Source of the DNA: Catenuloplanes niger
GTDB taxonomy: Bacteria > Actinomycetota > Actinomycetes > Mycobacteriales > Micromonosporaceae
Length of the DNA stretch: 64,000 nt
Direction of reading: 5' to 3'
Assembly (NCBI RefSeq): GCF_031458255.1
Contig: NZ_JAVDYC010000001.1
Location: forward strand, 8,790,501-8,854,500
How positions within the stretch are numbered: the first letter of the stretch is position 1; each line of letters starts with the position of its first letter. The notes under the pieces are model-generated. The model saw only the letters and a list, made by a program, of their open reading frames with translations. It searched no databases and was not told the DNA's origin. Shown piece after piece: positions 39,306 through 44,876 of this stretch. The position numbers and the translations under genes were made by a program.

Positions 39306-39986
39306 TCAGTCGGTTTCGGCGAATCGTTCTACCTTGTCGATGGCGCCTACGACGAGGACGATGTCGCCGTAGGCCAGCACGGTGTCCGGTGTGGCGTAGG
39401 TGAACCCACGTGTGGCACCGGGTGCCGGTGCCTGCGGTTTGACGGCGACGACGGTGACACCCCAGCGGCTGCGAAGCTTCGATTCGCGCAGCGGGACGCC
39501 GACGACGTCGCGGGGTGCTTTGGTCTTGATGACGGCGAAGTCCGCGTCGACTTCGACGTAGTCGAGGATCCGGCCGGAGAGCAGGTGGGCGACGCGTTCG
39601 CCCATGTCGTTCTCCGGGAAGACGACGTGGTGGGCGCCGACGCGGGACAGGATGCCGGCGTGCTGGGTGTTGATGGCTTTGGCCCAGATGTCGCGGATGC
39701 CGAGGTCGGCCAGTAGCGCGGTGGTCAGGATGCTGGCCTGGATGTCGGTGCCGATGGCGACGACCGCGCGGTGGAAGGCGGTGATGTCGAGCTGGTGCAG
39801 GGCATCGGCGTCGGTGCTGTCCGCGGTGACCACGTGCGGCAGCCGCCCGGCGAGCTTCTGCACGACGACGGGGTTACCGTCGATGGCGAGGACTTCGGTG
39901 CCCCGGCGGTCTAGTTCGACGGCGAGGGCGGTGCCGAATCGGCCGAGTCCGATGACAACGACGGGGGCGGTGGGTGTGTCAGCCAA
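39306..39986 (-). CDS. Potassium-uptake regulatory subunit with TrkA-N and TrkA-C domains (KtrA type)
   Basis: A 226-residue RCK protein. The N-terminal Rossmann motif is VVVIGLGRFGTALAVEL (near residues 8-24), then IDGNP and TADSTDADAL. The C-terminal TrkA-C domain covers about 135-220. It gates the adjacent TrkH/KtrB channel in response to NAD(H)/ATP. The TTG at 39986 is preferred: GGAGAG precedes it and it overlaps the TGA of the channel gene (39979-39981), implying translational coupling; an in-frame ATG at 40025 would overlap more. Confidence 0.85.
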   Translation of the reverse strand: MADTPTAPVVVIGLGRFGTALAVELDRRGTEVLAIDGNPVVVQKLAGRLPHVVTADSTDADALHQLDITAFHRAVVAIGTDIQASILTTALLADLGIRDIWAKAINTQHAGILSRVGAHHVVFPENDMGERVAHLLSGRILDYVEVDADFAVIKTKAPRDVVGVPLRESKLRSRWGVTVVAVKPQAPAPGATRGFTYATPDTVLAYGDIVLVVGAIDKVERFAETD

Positions 39987-41367
39987 CGATGGTTCTCTCC
40001 TCGGGCAGTTCGTAGCGCTGGTCACGGTCGCGTAGCGCGAGCGCGGAGGCCAGAGTGAGTGGGCCGATCCGCCCGGTGAACATCAGGGCCACCAGCAGCA
40101 GTTGGGCCTCGGTGGGGAGGTCCGCGGTGATGCCGGTGGACAGACCGACGGTCGCGAACGCCGAGATCGTCTCGAACAGCACCGCGTCGAGGGTGTGCGT
40201 GGTCACGGCGAGCAGGGTGAAGGTGGCGGTGACCACCGCGCCGACGCTGAGCAGGGCGATCGCGAGGGCTTGCCGTTGGTTGGTGGCGGGGATGCGGCGG
40301 CGCCCGGCGTTGACGTGGGCCTGGCCGCGGACCTCCGACCACAGCATGAAGGCCAGCACACCGAACGTAGTGACTTTGATCCCGCCCGCGGTGCCGGCGC
40401 TGCCGCCGCCGATGAACATCAGCACGTCCGTGGCGAGCAAGCTCTCCGGGCGCATCGCGCCGATGTCGACGCTGTTGAACCCGGCAGTTCGCGCCATCGC
40501 GGACGCGAAGAACCCGGCCAGCAGCCGGTCACCGAGGTCGAGTGCGCCGAGGGTACGGGTGTTCGTCCATTCCGCCGCGGTGAACACGGCCGTGCCCGTA
40601 GCGAGCAGGACGGCGGTCAGCGTGACGGTGATGCGGGTCATCACCGACCAGCGGCTCGGGCGCCGCCATCCACGGGTGAGCTCGAAGACGACCGGGAAGC
40701 CGAGACCACCGACGATGACCGCCGCGGCTACGGTCAGGCAGATCCACGCATCGTCGGCGTAGCGAACCAGCCCGTCGGCGTGGATGGAGAAACCGGCGTT
40801 GTTGAACGCGGACACCGCATGGAACACTCCGCTGTAGAGCGCATCCGACGGCGCGAGCCCGTAGCCGGCGACCAGCCGGACGGTCAGCACCACCGCGACG
40901 AGCGCTTCAATGCCGAGGCTGAACAGCACGATGCGGCGCACCAGCCCGCGCACATCGTGCAGGCTGAGGCTCTTCGTCTCCGCCTGCGCCAGGAACCTCG
41001 CGCGCAACCCCAGCCGGCGTGACAGCAGCAGGGTCAGCATCGTGGCCAGCGTCATGATCCCCAGGCCGCCGGTCTGGATCAGCAGCAGAATGACTGTCTG
41101 ACCGAACGGTGACCAGTGGGTGCCGGTGTCGACCGTGGCCAAACCCGTCACACACACTGCGGACGTCGCCGTGAACAACGCGTCGACCAGCGACGCGGGC
41201 TCGTCCGCCGTGGTCGCCCACGGCAGGCTCAGCAACCCGGTGCCGGCCGCGACGGTCGCACCGAACCCGACCGTGATCACCTGCGCGGGATGCCGGAACC
41301 GGTCGGCTCGCCGCCGCCACGCGCGTGCTGACCCGGCAAGGATCGCGCGTCCGCGCCCGGTCAGCAT
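39979..41367 (-). CDS. TrkH/KtrB-type potassium uptake channel subunit
   Basis: A 462-residue membrane protein with four repeats of the M1-P-M2 type. Filter glycines are visible in TSAVCVTGLATVDTG, HAVSAFNNAGFSIH, ARTAGFNSVD and ISAFATVGLSTGI. With the KtrA-type subunit it takes up K+ and supports osmotic adaptation. The start at ATG 41367 is proposed because the preceding sequence is non-conserved and a 43-codon upstream frame (41492-41361) ends across this ATG, which may couple translation; a TTG at 41454 is an alternative. A conserved leader element (41496-41556) lies upstream. Confidence 0.88.
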   Translation of the reverse strand: MLTGRGRAILAGSARAWRRRADRFRHPAQVITVGFGATVAAGTGLLSLPWATTADEPASLVDALFTATSAVCVTGLATVDTGTHWSPFGQTVILLLIQTGGLGIMTLATMLTLLLSRRLGLRARFLAQAETKSLSLHDVRGLVRRIVLFSLGIEALVAVVLTVRLVAGYGLAPSDALYSGVFHAVSAFNNAGFSIHADGLVRYADDAWICLTVAAAVIVGGLGFPVVFELTRGWRRPSRWSVMTRITVTLTAVLLATGTAVFTAAEWTNTRTLGALDLGDRLLAGFFASAMARTAGFNSVDIGAMRPESLLATDVLMFIGGGSAGTAGGIKVTTFGVLAFMLWSEVRGQAHVNAGRRRIPATNQRQALAIALLSVGAVVTATFTLLAVTTHTLDAVLFETISAFATVGLSTGITADLPTEAQLLLVALMFTGRIGPLTLASALALRDRDQRYELPEERTIVG

Positions 41368-41492
41368 CCGCTGCGGCACAGCGCGCCCGACGAAGACAGC
41401 GCCGAATCTGGCACTCGCCGCAGCGCGCGACGGCACGACGTGGAACCACGGCAAACCGATGTCGGTGACACGGACGGTGGCAGCAGGGACAT
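41361..41492 (-). CDS. Possible upstream ORF (43 codons) between the leader element and ktrB-type gene
   Basis: The ATG at 41492 follows AGGAAG and lies immediately after the 3' arm of the conserved leader, exactly where the start codons of the other two leader-controlled genes lie. The product is basic and not recognised. The TGA at 41361-41363 overlaps the KtrB-type start region. It could be a coupling peptide, or the true N-terminus displaced by a frameshift. Confidence 0.35.
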   Translation of the reverse strand: MSLLPPSVSPTSVCRGSTSCRRALRRVPDSALSSSGALCRSGC

Positions 41493-41495
41493 GGT

Positions 41496-41556
41496 GGTGG
41501 CGCTTCCTGTCGGCACGATGAATCGCACATCGCCGACCAGGCTTCCCGGCACACCT
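41496..41556 (-). ncRNA. Conserved cis-regulatory leader element, copy A (upstream of ktrB-type gene)
   Basis: On the minus strand the first 27 bases (41556-41530) are identical, except for one base, to the element before nhaA at 43514-43540. The hairpin core is GCCG-GGAAGCCTGGT-CGGC. GGUG at the 5' end can pair with CACC at the 3' end, closing the element. The 3' segment contains GGAAG, which can serve as Shine-Dalgarno sequence. See copies B and C. Confidence 0.65.
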
Positions 41557-41645
41557 GCGCGCAGCGTACCAGCGAGACGTCTCTCAAGCGGCGCACATGG
41601 CAGTTCGGCGGCATCGCGCTTGCGACAGCGGGCGACGGCGGTGTC

Positions 41646-42110
41646 ATGATCCGGCTGCTGTTTGCGATCTGCGGGATGGTGCTGCTGGCGGCGATGCTGA
41701 TCGCCGGCCGGCGTCGGGACCGGTGTGGCAGTGGCGTCTGCTGGGCGTGGTGGCGGTGGGCCTGGTCGTGGCGGGGGTGTTCCCGACGGATCCGGCTCTG
41801 GGATATCCGCCTGGTGCCGCGGAGACGATCAGCGTCCCGGGGGCGGTGCATCAGGTGGGCGGCACGATGCTGTTCGCCGGGATGATCGCCGCGGCCGTCG
41901 TGACCGGCCGGGATGCCCGGCGACGCGGCTGGATCCGGTGGGCGGCCGTGTGCCTGGCCGTGGCCTGGGCTGGCGGTCGCGGCGGGGGTGGTGATCCGGC
42001 TGGTGCACCGGGACGTCATCGGCACCGGACCGGCCGGGCTGCTCGAGTTGCTGTCGATGGGCGTGCGGATTGCGCTGGGTCAGCGCGGCCATGCTGCGCG
42101 ACGGACCGTC
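41646..42110 (+). pseudogene. DUF998-like membrane protein, two frameshifts
   Basis: Three consecutive frames together read as one small membrane protein: MIRLLFAICGMVLLAAMLIA, then WRLLGVVAVGLVVAGVFPTD followed by PALGYPPG, then GLAVAAGVVIRLVHRDVIGT. The FPTDP...GYPPG motif and helix pattern fit DUF998. The two register changes make it a pseudogene unless they are sequencing errors. It sits between the divergent ktr operon and the glycosyltransferase gene. Confidence 0.55.
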
Positions 42111-42130
42111 GTGGGCGTACGCTGACCGCC

Positions 42131-42185
42131 GGTGAGCCGGGAAGTCTGGTCGGCACGACGTTTCCGTGCGACGAAGGGCTCACCC
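42131..42185 (+). ncRNA. Conserved cis-regulatory leader element, copy B (upstream of glycosyltransferase gene)
   Basis: It carries the same core GCCG-GGAAGTCTGGT-CGGC as the other two copies. Here the closing stem is perfect: GGTGAGC (42131-42137) pairs with GCTCACC (42178-42184). The 3' arm ends one base before the GTG start, and the probable Shine-Dalgarno GAAGGG (42173-42178) lies at its foot, so folding should affect translation. Confidence 0.7.
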
Positions 42186-43469
42186 GTGAAGGTTCTGATT
42201 CTGACGCTGGGCACCCGCGGCGACGTGCAGCCGTTCATTGCCCTCGCCCACGAACTGCGGCAACGCGGCCACGAAGCGATCGTCGCGGCTCCGCAGCGGT
42301 TCGCCGGGCTCGCCGCCGCACACGGCGTGCCGTTCTCTGCCCTCGATGACGGGCCGCTTCGGGTGCTGGATGACGGTTCGGGGGTCGAGGACGTCGCCAG
42401 GGGCGGGTTCCGGGGGAAGGTGGCGCTCATGCGGCGGATGCCGGCGATGTTCGGCCGGGTCCTCGACGACTGCTGGCAGGTGGCCGACACCGGTGCGGGC
42501 GCGGGCGCTGATGTCGTCGTGCACAACGGCCAGGTCATCGCCGGGCAGCACGTGGCCGAGAAACTCGGCGTGCCCGCCGTGCTGGGGCTGCCGTTGCCGA
42601 TGTATGTGCCGACCCGCGAGTTCCCGTGGCCCGGCCAAGACGTCTCCGATCGGCTGCCGGGTTGGCTGAACCGGATTACCTACGCCGGGATGCGCGCCCC
42701 GGCGCTGATGTTCGGCCACACCGTCGACCGGTGGCGCGACCTCCTCGGCCTGCCGCGCCGGCGTGGCCGCCATGACCCGGCGTTGCGCCCTGACGGCGGG
42801 CCGGCCCCGGTGTTGCACGCCATCAGCCCCGCGGTGCTGCCGCGCCCGGCGGACTGGCCTGCCACGGCGCAGGTCACCGGCTACTGGTTCACCCCGCCGG
42901 CTCCGTCCACCGGCGGCCTCCTTGACGTGCAGGTGCGGGCGCTGCTGGACAGCCGGCCGGCGCCGGTGTTCGTAGGGTTCGGCAGCATGGCCGGACCGGA
43001 CCCGGCCACCGCTTCTCGCACCGTGCTGGAGGCGCTCGATCTGGTGGGTCTGCCCGGGATCGTGGCCGGCGGCTGGGGCGGCCTGCAATCGTTCGCCTCC
43101 GATCGGCACGCGTTCGTCGCTGGTGACGTGCCGCACGAGGTGGTGTTCCCGCGGTGCGCGGTCATCGTTCATCACGGCGGCGCCGGGACCACCGCGGCCG
43201 CTGCGCGCGCCGGCGTCCCGCAGGTGATCTGCCCGTTCGTGGCCGACCAGCCGTTCTGGGGCCGGCGCATGCACCGGCTCGGCGTCGCCCCGCCACCGGT
43301 CCCGCAGACACGCCTGGATGCCCTCGCGCTGGCCGCCGCGATCCGGCAGGCCACACGGGATGCGGGCATGGCCGAGGCGGCGCGGCTGCTCGGTGAGCGG
43401 ATCAGGGCGGAGAACGGTGCCGCAGCCACCGTGGACGCGCTGGAACGCATCACCGGCACACACCGGTGA
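42186..43469 (+). CDS. GT1-family (UGT-like) glycosyltransferase
   Basis: A 427-residue enzyme. The N-terminal domain begins KVLILTLGTRGDVQPFIALA, typical of sterol-glucosyltransferase/vancomycin-type GT1 enzymes. The C-terminal domain holds FVGFGSMAGPDP and the donor-binding motif VIVHHGGAGTTAAAARAGVP. It should transfer a sugar from a nucleotide donor to a small lipophilic acceptor, unknown here. The GTG at 42186 starts directly after leader copy B. Being under the same leader as two cation transporters is unexpected. Confidence 0.85.
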   Translation: MKVLILTLGTRGDVQPFIALAHELRQRGHEAIVAAPQRFAGLAAAHGVPFSALDDGPLRVLDDGSGVEDVARGGFRGKVALMRRMPAMFGRVLDDCWQVADTGAGAGADVVVHNGQVIAGQHVAEKLGVPAVLGLPLPMYVPTREFPWPGQDVSDRLPGWLNRITYAGMRAPALMFGHTVDRWRDLLGLPRRRGRHDPALRPDGGPAPVLHAISPAVLPRPADWPATAQVTGYWFTPPAPSTGGLLDVQVRALLDSRPAPVFVGFGSMAGPDPATASRTVLEALDLVGLPGIVAGGWGGLQSFASDRHAFVAGDVPHEVVFPRCAVIVHHGGAGTTAAAARAGVPQVICPFVADQPFWGRRMHRLGVAPPPVPQTRLDALALAAAIRQATRDAGMAEAARLLGERIRAENGAAATVDALERITGTHR

Positions 43470-43513
43470 CCTGTGCCGCTGCGCACCCCCGGGGGCCACG
43501 GTAGGTTAGGACC

Positions 43514-43571
43514 AGGTGTGCCGGGAAGGCTGGTCGGCGACGGATTTTTAGTGCCTTCCTGAAGGAGTCTC
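43514..43571 (+). ncRNA. Conserved cis-regulatory leader element, copy C (upstream of nhaA)
   Basis: Its first 27 bases equal copy A except at one position. The hairpin is GCCG-GGAAGGCTGGT-CGGC. The 3' part contains gtgccttcctgaaggag, which offers an extra CTTCC/GGAAG-type stem and supplies the Shine-Dalgarno GAAGGAG (43561-43567) of nhaA. The closing stem is poorer than in copies A and B. Confidence 0.65.
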
Positions 43572-44876
43572 ATGTCTGGTGTGCCACCACGTTCCCGTCA
43601 CCTCTTCGGCCGCCGGAGTTGGCCCGAGGCCCGGCGGATCGCCGAAATCCTGCGCGCGGAGACCGTCGGTGGTGCGCTGCTGCTGGGTGCGGCGGTGCTG
43701 GCACTGCTGTGGGCGAACTCGCCCTGGTCCGAGGCGTACCGCGCGCTGGGCGAGGTCACGGTCGGCCCGCACGCGCTGCACCTGGACCTGACGCTGGCGC
43801 AGTGGGCCGCGGACGGCCTGCTGGCGATCTTTTTCTTCGTCGCCGGGCTGGAGCTCAAACGCGAGTTCGTCGCCGGTGATCTGCGTGATCCGCGCCGAGC
43901 GGTGATGCCGATCGCGGCCGCAGCGGGCGGCATGGCCGTACCGGCGATCATCTACACCGTCATCAACGCCACCGCCGACGGTGGCGCGCTGGCCGGGTGG
44001 GCGGTGCCGACCGCAACCGACATCGCCTTCGCGCTCGCCGTCCTTGCTGTCGTCGGCTCGCACCTGCCGGCCGCGCTGCGCACGTTCCTGCTCACCCTCG
44101 CCGTGGTCGACGATCTGCTCGCCATCGTGATCATCGCGGTGTTCTACACCAGCTCCCTGCAGCTGCTGCCGCTGGCCGCGGCGCTGATCCCGCTCGCGGT
44201 GTTCGGGGTTCTGGTGCAGCGGCGGGTCCGGTCGTGGTGGCTGCTGCTCCCGCTCGCGGTGGCGGTGTGGGCGCTGGTGCACGCCTCCGGCATCCACGCC
44301 ACGGTCGCCGGCGTCCTGCTCGGCTTCCTCGTTCCGGTCGTCCGCCGTGCCGACGGGCCCGGGCCCGGGCTGGCGGAGCACTTCGAGCACCGGTGGCGTC
44401 CGATCTCCGCCGGGGTGGCCGTGCCGGTCTTCGCGTTCTTCGCCGCCGGTGTCTCGGTCGCCGGCGCGGGCGGGCTCGGTGCGACGATGTCCGATCCGGT
44501 CACCATCGGCATCATCGCCGGTCTGGTGGCCGGCAAGGCCGTGGGTGTGCTCGCCGCGACCTGGCTGGTGCAGCGGTTCACCCGGTCCTCGCTCGGTGAC
44601 CAGCTCGGCTGGTGGGACGTGCTCGGCCTGTCGTTGCTGGCCGGGATCGGGTTCACGGTGTCGCTGCTGATCGGCGAGCTGGCGTTCGGCGCCGGCAGCG
44701 AGAAGGACGAGCACGCCCGGATCGGCATTCTGGCCGGCTCGTTCGCCTCCGCGGTGCTGGCGACCGTGGTGCTGCGGATGCGCAACCGGCACTACCGGCG
44801 GTTGCACGAGATCGAGGAACGCGACGCCGACGCCGACGGCGTGCCGGACGTGTACCAGGGTGAGGCACGCTCCTGA
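43572..44876 (+). CDS. nhaA: Na+/H+ antiporter NhaA
   Basis: A 434-residue membrane protein of the NhaA family. Typical stretches are [57 protein letters not shown] and [19 protein letters not shown] (the adjacent Asp pair of the ion site), [16 protein letters not shown] and [15 protein letters not shown]. It exports Na+ or Li+ in exchange for protons, for pH and salt homeostasis. GAAGGAG precedes the ATG and is part of leader copy C. Confidence 0.95.

Follow-up and report, generated by a model that had tools for sequence, protein, structure and literature searches.

A short conserved leader RNA upstream of nhaA and other ion-homeostasis genes of Actinomycetota: a candidate translational riboswitch for Na+

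Why should a TrkH-family cation transport gene, a glycosyltransferase gene and nhaA share one and the same leader? The question is raised by a stretch of 64,000 nucleotides (nt) from the genome of Catenuloplanes niger (contig NZ_JAVDYC010000001.1, positions 8,790,501 to 8,854,500; hereafter the window), in which an element of about 25 nt stands in front of each of these three genes. The element is a real and widespread cis-regulatory RNA, apparently previously undescribed. Judging from the company of genes that it keeps, it may be a translational riboswitch that senses Na+ or a disturbed Na+/K+/pH state, a reading to which we give a probability of about one half.

The first-pass annotation of the window, made from the letters alone, counted three copies of one element within 2 kb. 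A search with GCCGGGAAGNCTGGTCGGC bears this out with exactly three matches in the window, at 41532-41550 (-), 42136-42154 (+) and 43520-43538 (+); with three mismatches allowed, dinucleotide shuffles gave a mean of 0.42 matches, and three were reached in 1 of 100 shuffles. All copies follow the pattern GGNGN-GCCG-GGAAGNCUGGU-CGGC-N, and the GCCG and CGGC arms noticed in the annotation recur in every 25-mer. Copies 1, 2 and 3 begin with GGTGT, GGTGA and GGTGT, have C, T and G between the GGAAG and CTGGT of the middle part, and end with G, A and G. Two copies on opposite strands had been reported to agree at 26 of 27 bases; the near-identity of copies 1 and 3 stands, but the actual count is 27 of 28, from CAGGTGT to CGGCGA. 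The 19-mer has seven exact copies in the 9.74-Mb single-contig genome. Besides the three in the window, one copy stands before another nhaA (L001); the remaining three lie near 9.045 Mb, where they precede genes for an ABC ATPase, another glycosyltransferase and a membrane protein of the DUF998 type.

The element is found far beyond this genome. In the family, GTGNGCCGGGAAGNCTGGTCGGC with up to two mismatches occurs in 177 of 200 genomes, and in the phylum GCCGGGAAGNCTGGTCGGC with up to one mismatch occurs in 104 of 396; chance occurrence was rejected, as the pattern read backward is present in only 9 and 8 of these genomes, respectively. A covariance model (R1), an approach suggested in the first-pass annotation, was positive at E<=0.01 in 161 of 246 genomes of the class. 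At least 119 stretches of the named collection carry the element, 80 of them listed; among the matches listed are Streptomyces, Mycolicibacterium, Nocardia, Arthrobacter, Leucobacter, Amycolatopsis, Acidimicrobiaceae and Solirubrobacterales, and also two Chloroflexi metagenome-assembled genomes and one Mesorhizobium. The best covariance-model scores fall between 44.9 and 34.7 bits, followed by a single intermediate one at 32.6 and then by scores of 29.2 or less; matches below 30 bits were treated as chance. Because the collection patterns fix most positions, the invariance of the element is partly built in; the model searches loosen this, and few loop variants appeared even there. One of these, GGAAGNCGGGU, in which a single U of the loop is replaced by G, is recurrent (L169, L170, L175, L189, L253-L256), stands before Mrp-like and Na+/Ca2+ exchanger genes, among others, and is possibly a specificity variant.

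That the element acts as RNA is hardly in doubt. Its conserved core consists of a 4-bp stem GCCG/CGGC, an 11-nt loop GGAAGNCUGGU and a non-Watson-Crick pair flanking the stem, with GGNG 5' of the core. Covariation in homologues, named as a test in the first-pass annotation, is present at three of the four stem pairs: a stem-free pattern search and covariance-model searches yielded the paired changes UCCG/CGGA (five genomes of one genus), GUCG/CGAC (two families) and GCUG/CAGC (two families). Among 44 distinct sequences, the covariation score of these double changes was reached by none of 500 shuffles, and the percentage paired is biased upward because the sequences were partly chosen for paired stems. 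The UCCG/CGGA variant was met only in genus g45 (L251, L268, L270, L274 and L277), several genomes of which also hold consensus copies. The bases that flank the stem (n=290) are U·G in 138 elements and C·A in 78 (216 together), a Watson-Crick pair in 22, with G on the 5' side in 2. Their mutual information, 0.50 bits against a maximum of 0.064 in 2000 shuffles, is the highest of the tested column pairs (3 or more positions apart, between 12 nt 5' and 60 nt 3' of the element), the next, 0.48, falling in the -10 region. The change from U·G to C·A is an isosteric wobble-to-wobble exchange, which as DNA would be neither palindromic nor paired, and both forms are present in the larger gene clusters and inside Streptomyces (L053, L054).

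The element also keeps a characteristic position. A TANNNT box ends 5-9 nt 5' of the GG in 221 of 280 elements, at exactly 7 nt in 154 of them and in all three window copies (shuffles, mean 7.7 and maximum 17), while 59 have no such box at this distance. In the Streptomyces leaders L053, L062 and L077, among 40 displayed, the nearest -10-like box lies 23-35 nt upstream, and the 7-nt spacing is therefore not required. Judging from the box, transcription would in most cases begin at or beside the first G of the element. For 233 of 265 elements, the start of a regulon gene is no more than 160 nt away on the same strand; for 8 of 265 such a gene is on the opposite strand, the antisense count using gene families first identified on the sense side. 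Excluded from the counts of genes and orientation were 8 of the 290 elements, with no GGNG, an altered loop or fewer than four pairs, and from that of orientation a further 17 of 282 with less than 300 nt of flank on one side.

These observations bear on two explanations that dispense with a structured RNA. A 19-bp sequence with GCCG and CGGC arms, in most copies at a fixed distance from a -10 box, could be a DNA operator that a transcription factor recognises immediately 3' of the promoter, and a diverged dimeric factor could by itself yield symmetric changes of the arms. This is already disfavoured and would be surprising: the middle is asymmetric (GGA versus GGU from either side), and the symmetry of a palindrome is lacking; the covariation of the flanking T/G and C/A is non-palindromic; and the elements are oriented in the sense direction and, in the three Streptomyces leaders, lie far from the nearest -10-like box. 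Moreover, the single genomes G845, G284, G455 and G523 hold both consensus and variant stems, which a DNA-binding protein of changed specificity does not explain. With the predicted transcript start, a GTG lies 1-2 nt from the beginning of most transcripts, and a leaderless upstream peptide (GTG NGC CGG GAA GNC TGG TCG) might be conserved as coding sequence. Hardly any weight is given to this, as 41 of 197 leaders have no GTG at that place and variation falls on the first base of codon 2 and the second base of codon 5 rather than on third positions (most other sites were fixed by the search patterns).

A gene call was obtained for 274 of 282 elements. NhaA forms by far the largest downstream cluster (143 of 282), followed by a CPA1 Na+/H+ exchanger (27), a DrrA-type ABC ATPase (21), a CBS-domain protein (14), the Na+/Ca2+ exchanger family (8), Mrp/NuoL-like proteins (6), a membrane protein without Pfam or NCBIfam match in the one representative checked (5) and a glycosyltransferase (4). 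Clusters of three are a CitMHS-type protein, a PPDK_N/phosphoenolpyruvate (PEP)-utilising enzyme and an alpha/beta hydrolase; those of two are TrkH and a P-type cation ATPase, in addition to small unassigned clusters. An H+-pyrophosphatase, a TrkA_N protein and an S-adenosylmethionine (SAM)-dependent methyltransferase occur once each. Cluster names are those of representatives, and there are wrong frames among the singletons. In an 8-kb Lentzea locus (L112), three elements precede a CPA1-type antiporter, a SAM-dependent methyltransferase and an open reading frame (ORF) resembling a flavin adenine dinucleotide-type enzyme. In 30 genomes, 27 of 43 NhaA genes carry the element 43-215 nt 5' of the profile match, one of them with an element score of 34.7 bits; these genomes were chosen for holding elements, and the rate is not that of the phylum. 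Open frames of at least 584 amino acids (aa) were found for 13 of the 16 NhaA genes without the element versus 2 of the 27 with it; the element thus marks one NhaA type.

One regulon thus spans several unrelated families of Na+/H+ or cation antiporters. Since these families share little beyond Na+, H+ and sometimes Li+ or K+, Na+ would be the simplest common signal. In the window itself, the two cation transporters seen in the first-pass annotation are upheld by domain matches, as a TrkH-family protein (PF02386, there called ktrB) and NhaA (PF06965), with the glycosyltransferase as the third gene. The same RNA and mechanism might instead serve another ion: Li+, K+, H+ or a divalent ion. We regard this as appreciably less probable than the Na+ reading, while it is the strongest of the competing explanations. 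The C·A pair of 78 of 290 elements could respond to pH when protonated, but more elements (138 of 290) have U·G, for which no such protonation exists. TrkH is a K+ type of gene. NhaA also transports Li+, and both classes of Li+ riboswitch are most often upstream of nhaA, according to passages of PMC9646797; the members of the Na+/Ca2+ exchanger, Mrp-like and CPA1 families, on the other hand, favour Na+ over Li+.

The position of the element in the leader suits control of translation. Among 220 leaders with a confident start codon, this codon is found 30-39 nt 3' of the stem in 112 (median 37), and the Shine-Dalgarno (SD) sequence most often 20-24 nt 3' of the stem (68 of 220). The short distance from stem to start leaves little room for an intrinsic terminator, and this position suggests that control is most likely exerted at translation initiation. 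The translational ion control proposed in the first-pass annotation is strongly supported as far as a conserved leader RNA, ion-homeostasis genes and a suitable site are concerned, while binding of a ligand, and of an ion in particular, is presumed. As claimed there, an SD-like sequence and then a start codon follow every window copy, but the ATG after the AGGAAG of copy 1 (41492-41490, -) does not share the reading frame of the TrkH ORF, which is listed as beginning with TTG at 41454.

The leaders also contain sequences that could compete with the core. CGACC, the complement of GGUCG in the element, occurs downstream in 68 of 197 leaders against 9.7 expected, and CCGACC, the complement of GGUCGG, in 38 of 197 against 3.3. 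For other parts of the element, complements are only slightly in excess, at most 32 against 20 for the first G. Pairing of the 5' GGU with a downstream ACC was rejected, as CGACC is present independently of the base in GGN (A 10/24, C 3/11, G 3/6, T 58/156). In copy 2, GGUGAGCC is able to pair with GGCUCACC across the end of the SD sequence and the spacer; GGCTCACC of this leader overlaps the SD end (GAAGGG, 42173-42178) and the spacer before the GTG at 42186. A stem of GGUG(AGC) and (GCU)CACC had been put forward in the first-pass annotation. Its complementarity exists in copy 2, and in the shorter form GGUG/CACC in copy 1, but the conserved structure is a different one, the helix GCCG/CGGC with the flanking non-Watson-Crick pair; GGUG/CACC could at most pair locally as an alternative.

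In the mechanism that we propose, the element would be the first 25 nt of the mRNA in most cases and the conserved core of a cis-acting RNA. The folded core would bind Na+, or else report a disturbed Na+/K+/pH state, and its folding would compete with other pairings, for example of GGUCGG with a downstream CCGACC or, in copy 2, of GGUGAGCC with the ribosome-binding region. Entry of Na+, by salinity or through an ionophore, would then lead to more Na+/H+ antiporters, K+ uptake and exporters. Our slight preference for ON as the direction of switching stems solely from the regulon genes being exporters and from the Li+ riboswitches in front of nhaA, which activate expression, as passages of PMC9646797 state.

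Several points weigh against this riboswitch. In energy-model folding of 214 leaders, the unforced stem has an average probability of 0.0025, and forcing the stem and loop costs a mean of 12.7 kcal/mol. The forced core lowers the predicted accessibility of the SD sequence in 86 of 214 leaders and increases it in 29, compared with 25 and 19 of 120, respectively, when the spacers are shuffled. Accessibility is more often lowered than raised, which favours folded as OFF over a simple ON. The energy model leaves out the tertiary structure of the loop, and the contrary folding result is therefore weak. Of five covariation measures, one (further pair types) was attained in 198 of 500 shuffles. The known Na+ and Li+ riboswitches have larger Rfam models (55, 55 and 84 positions) than the core, and the glycosyltransferase, hydrolase, PEP-utilising enzyme and methyltransferase have no known role in relation to Na+. 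Small size, a near-invariant loop and the want of folding support in the energy model would also suit a hairpin to which a protein or another RNA, by base pairing, attaches, rather than a ligand-binding riboswitch. Such a hairpin is somewhat less credible than a riboswitch for another ion: the three orders of stem change and the invariant loop are compatible with an aptamer too, and the spread over the phylum would demand a protein partner that is equally widespread.

The first-pass annotation had held that its reading would suffer from a match to a known unrelated repeat or mobile element, and none was found. In a scan of the window and 38 loci (sets of 20 and 18) with all families of Rfam 15, no family reached its threshold at any element, the cyclic di-AMP riboswitch (ydaO) included. 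MIR8032 at copy 2 (16.8 bits, cut-off 78) was rejected as sub-threshold, and radC at L162 (29.3 bits against a cut-off of 40), which occurred in one locus of 38 and in which the flank and first stem aligned with the element are dissimilar to it, was taken as chance. At L295 23-152 (-) there is a match like the adenosylcobalamin riboswitch with 41.7 bits, under the gathering score of 50. As to a mobile or phage origin, viral_contigs contained no exact match to the element, and a viral search with NhaA gave no relative. The rifamycin-associated element (RAE), whose consensus seems to differ from the present element, had no exact match in 298 element loci. Like the present element, RAE lies 3' of the transcription start, as a 19-bp inverted repeat before antibiotic-inactivation genes; unlike it, RAE is described as a palindrome that a factor may bind (passages of PMC10719064). 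No recognised description of the motif was found in the literature searched, which did not extend to the supplements of motif screens, so that an earlier description is possible; passages of PMC11109978 and PMC8780764 contain no mention of nhaA.

The functionally closest known systems are the Li+-I, Li+-II and Na+-I riboswitches, which precede the same kinds of genes (passages of PMC9337991 and PMC9646797). The Li+-I riboswitch (nhaA-I RNA, RF03057) is likewise an nhaA leader RNA, and its consensus GGGUGC...UGGUCGGGC contains the GGUG and UGGUCGG of the element. However, it has 55 positions and two hairpins (P1 and P2) against 25 positions and one hairpin; its UGGU is in a stem and its CGGGC in the P2 loop, whereas UGGU of the element is in the loop and CGGC is a covarying stem strand. 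The resemblance is possibly convergent. A genome search with RF03057 at E<=10 produced 15 matches, all away from the seven elements and all below the cut-off of 37 (the best with 25.8 bits); in the window, none reaches the gathering score. A match of 25.8 bits at L290 1501-1548 (+) lies inside a 1000-aa open frame and is probably chance. The Li+-II riboswitch (nhaA-II RNA, RF03038) is also a leader RNA upstream of nhaA (passages of PMC9646797), but is a multi-hairpin model of 84 positions; its 10 matches at E<=10 in the genome include none at an element and none above the cut-off. The Na+-I riboswitch (DUF1646 motif, RF03071 'Sodium') resembles the element in controlling Na+ transport genes of diverse families (passages of PMC9337991) and differs from it in its 55-position model with P1 and P2; its one match in the genome, with 17 bits (cut-off 40.5), is away from the elements.

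A connection with ionophores may account for genes outside ion transport. According to passages of PMC10863045, polyether ionophores upset Na+/K+ and pH, and determinants of resistance to them include narAB, the Streptomyces tnrB2/B3 ABC transporter, trkH, mnh and nhaA. Four of these kinds of genes recur in the regulon of the element. The reviewed effects and this overlap suggest a proxy sensor, to which inward-leaking ions would reveal the drug. The element-bearing ABC ATPase of this genome has 42% identity over 97% to enterococcal records of 'ionophore ABC transporter ATP-binding subunit NarA', although 2809 plasmid records match it at E<=1e-20, such ATPases being widely alike. The permease beside it has no narB match at E<=1e-10 and matches one Pseudonocardia plasmid record only, so that the link to an ionophore exporter rests on the ATPase. 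The glycosyltransferase after copy 2 shows likeness to the rifamycin-inactivating Rgt with a score far under the cut-off of the Rgt model. One might also suppose that the RNA binds an antibiotic directly, an ionophore or a similar compound, and controls resistance and ion-repair genes, as the NarA-like ATPase, glycosyltransferases, PEP-utilising enzyme and methyltransferase stand alongside ion transporters. Very little speaks for this in the end, because half of the elements (143 of 282) are upstream of nhaA, occurrence across the phylum is wide for a sensor of a drug, and the neighbouring permease lacks a narB match. The broadest form of the proposal is speculative and rather unlikely as a whole: the element would represent a novel class of riboswitches for monovalent cations found across Actinomycetota, minimal in size (about 25 nt), 5'-terminal and wobble-closed, for which cytosolic Na+, or a Na+/K+/pH upset, would be a proxy of polyether ionophores, and which would control genes for ion homeostasis and for ionophore export and modification.

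The features of the locus are collected in Table 1. Between copies 1 and 2 there is an apparent degraded DUF998 gene (window 41640-42125, +), the translation of which resembles a DUF998 protein at L299 9602-10351 (-), itself element-bearing.

Table 1. Features around the three element copies, in window coordinates
Feature	Position	Strand	Basis
TrkA-type gene, next after the TrkH gene	39309-40025	-	PF02254 E 1.5e-23
TrkH-family cation transport protein, start uncertain	39982..41454	-	Pfam PF02386 E 4e-55
SD-like AGGAAG downstream of copy 1	41503..41508	-	sequence reading
Element copy 1, GGTGT-GCCG-GGAAGCCTGGT-CGGC-G, leader of the TrkH-family gene	41531..41555	-	pattern match
-10-like hexamer TACGCT, 7 nt 5' of copy 1	41563..41568	-	sequence reading and spacing statistics
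-10-like hexamer TACGCT, 7 nt 5' of copy 2	42118..42123	+	sequence reading
Element copy 2, GGTGA-GCCG-GGAAGTCTGGT-CGGC-A, leader of the glycosyltransferase gene	42131..42155	+	pattern match
GGCTCACC, complement of GGTGAGCC in copy 2	42177..42184	+	sequence reading
Glycosyltransferase, EryCIII-like C-terminal and family 28 N-terminal domains	42186..43469	+	domain profile search
-10-like hexamer TAGGTT, 7 nt 5' of copy 3	43502..43507	+	sequence reading
Element copy 3, GGTGT-GCCG-GGAAGGCTGGT-CGGC-G, nhaA leader	43515..43539	+	pattern match
SD sequence GAAGGAG of nhaA	43561..43567	+	sequence reading
nhaA, Na+/H+ antiporter	43572..44876	+	Pfam PF06965 E 5e-133; TIGR00773 above cut-off

Known regulators that sense Na+ are few. 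Passages of PMC9337991 mention one validated protein among Na+ sensors and the expectation of more sensors, and call the Na+-I riboswitch class, with 308 examples, relatively rare. The carriers of the present element include Streptomyces and other antibiotic-producing genera. If the element senses Na+, it would define an Na+ regulon of Actinomycetota and give a role to several unnamed genes. If the ionophore reading is also true, it would explain why nhaA, a glycosyltransferase gene and the gene for a NarA-like exporter ATPase have a leader in common.

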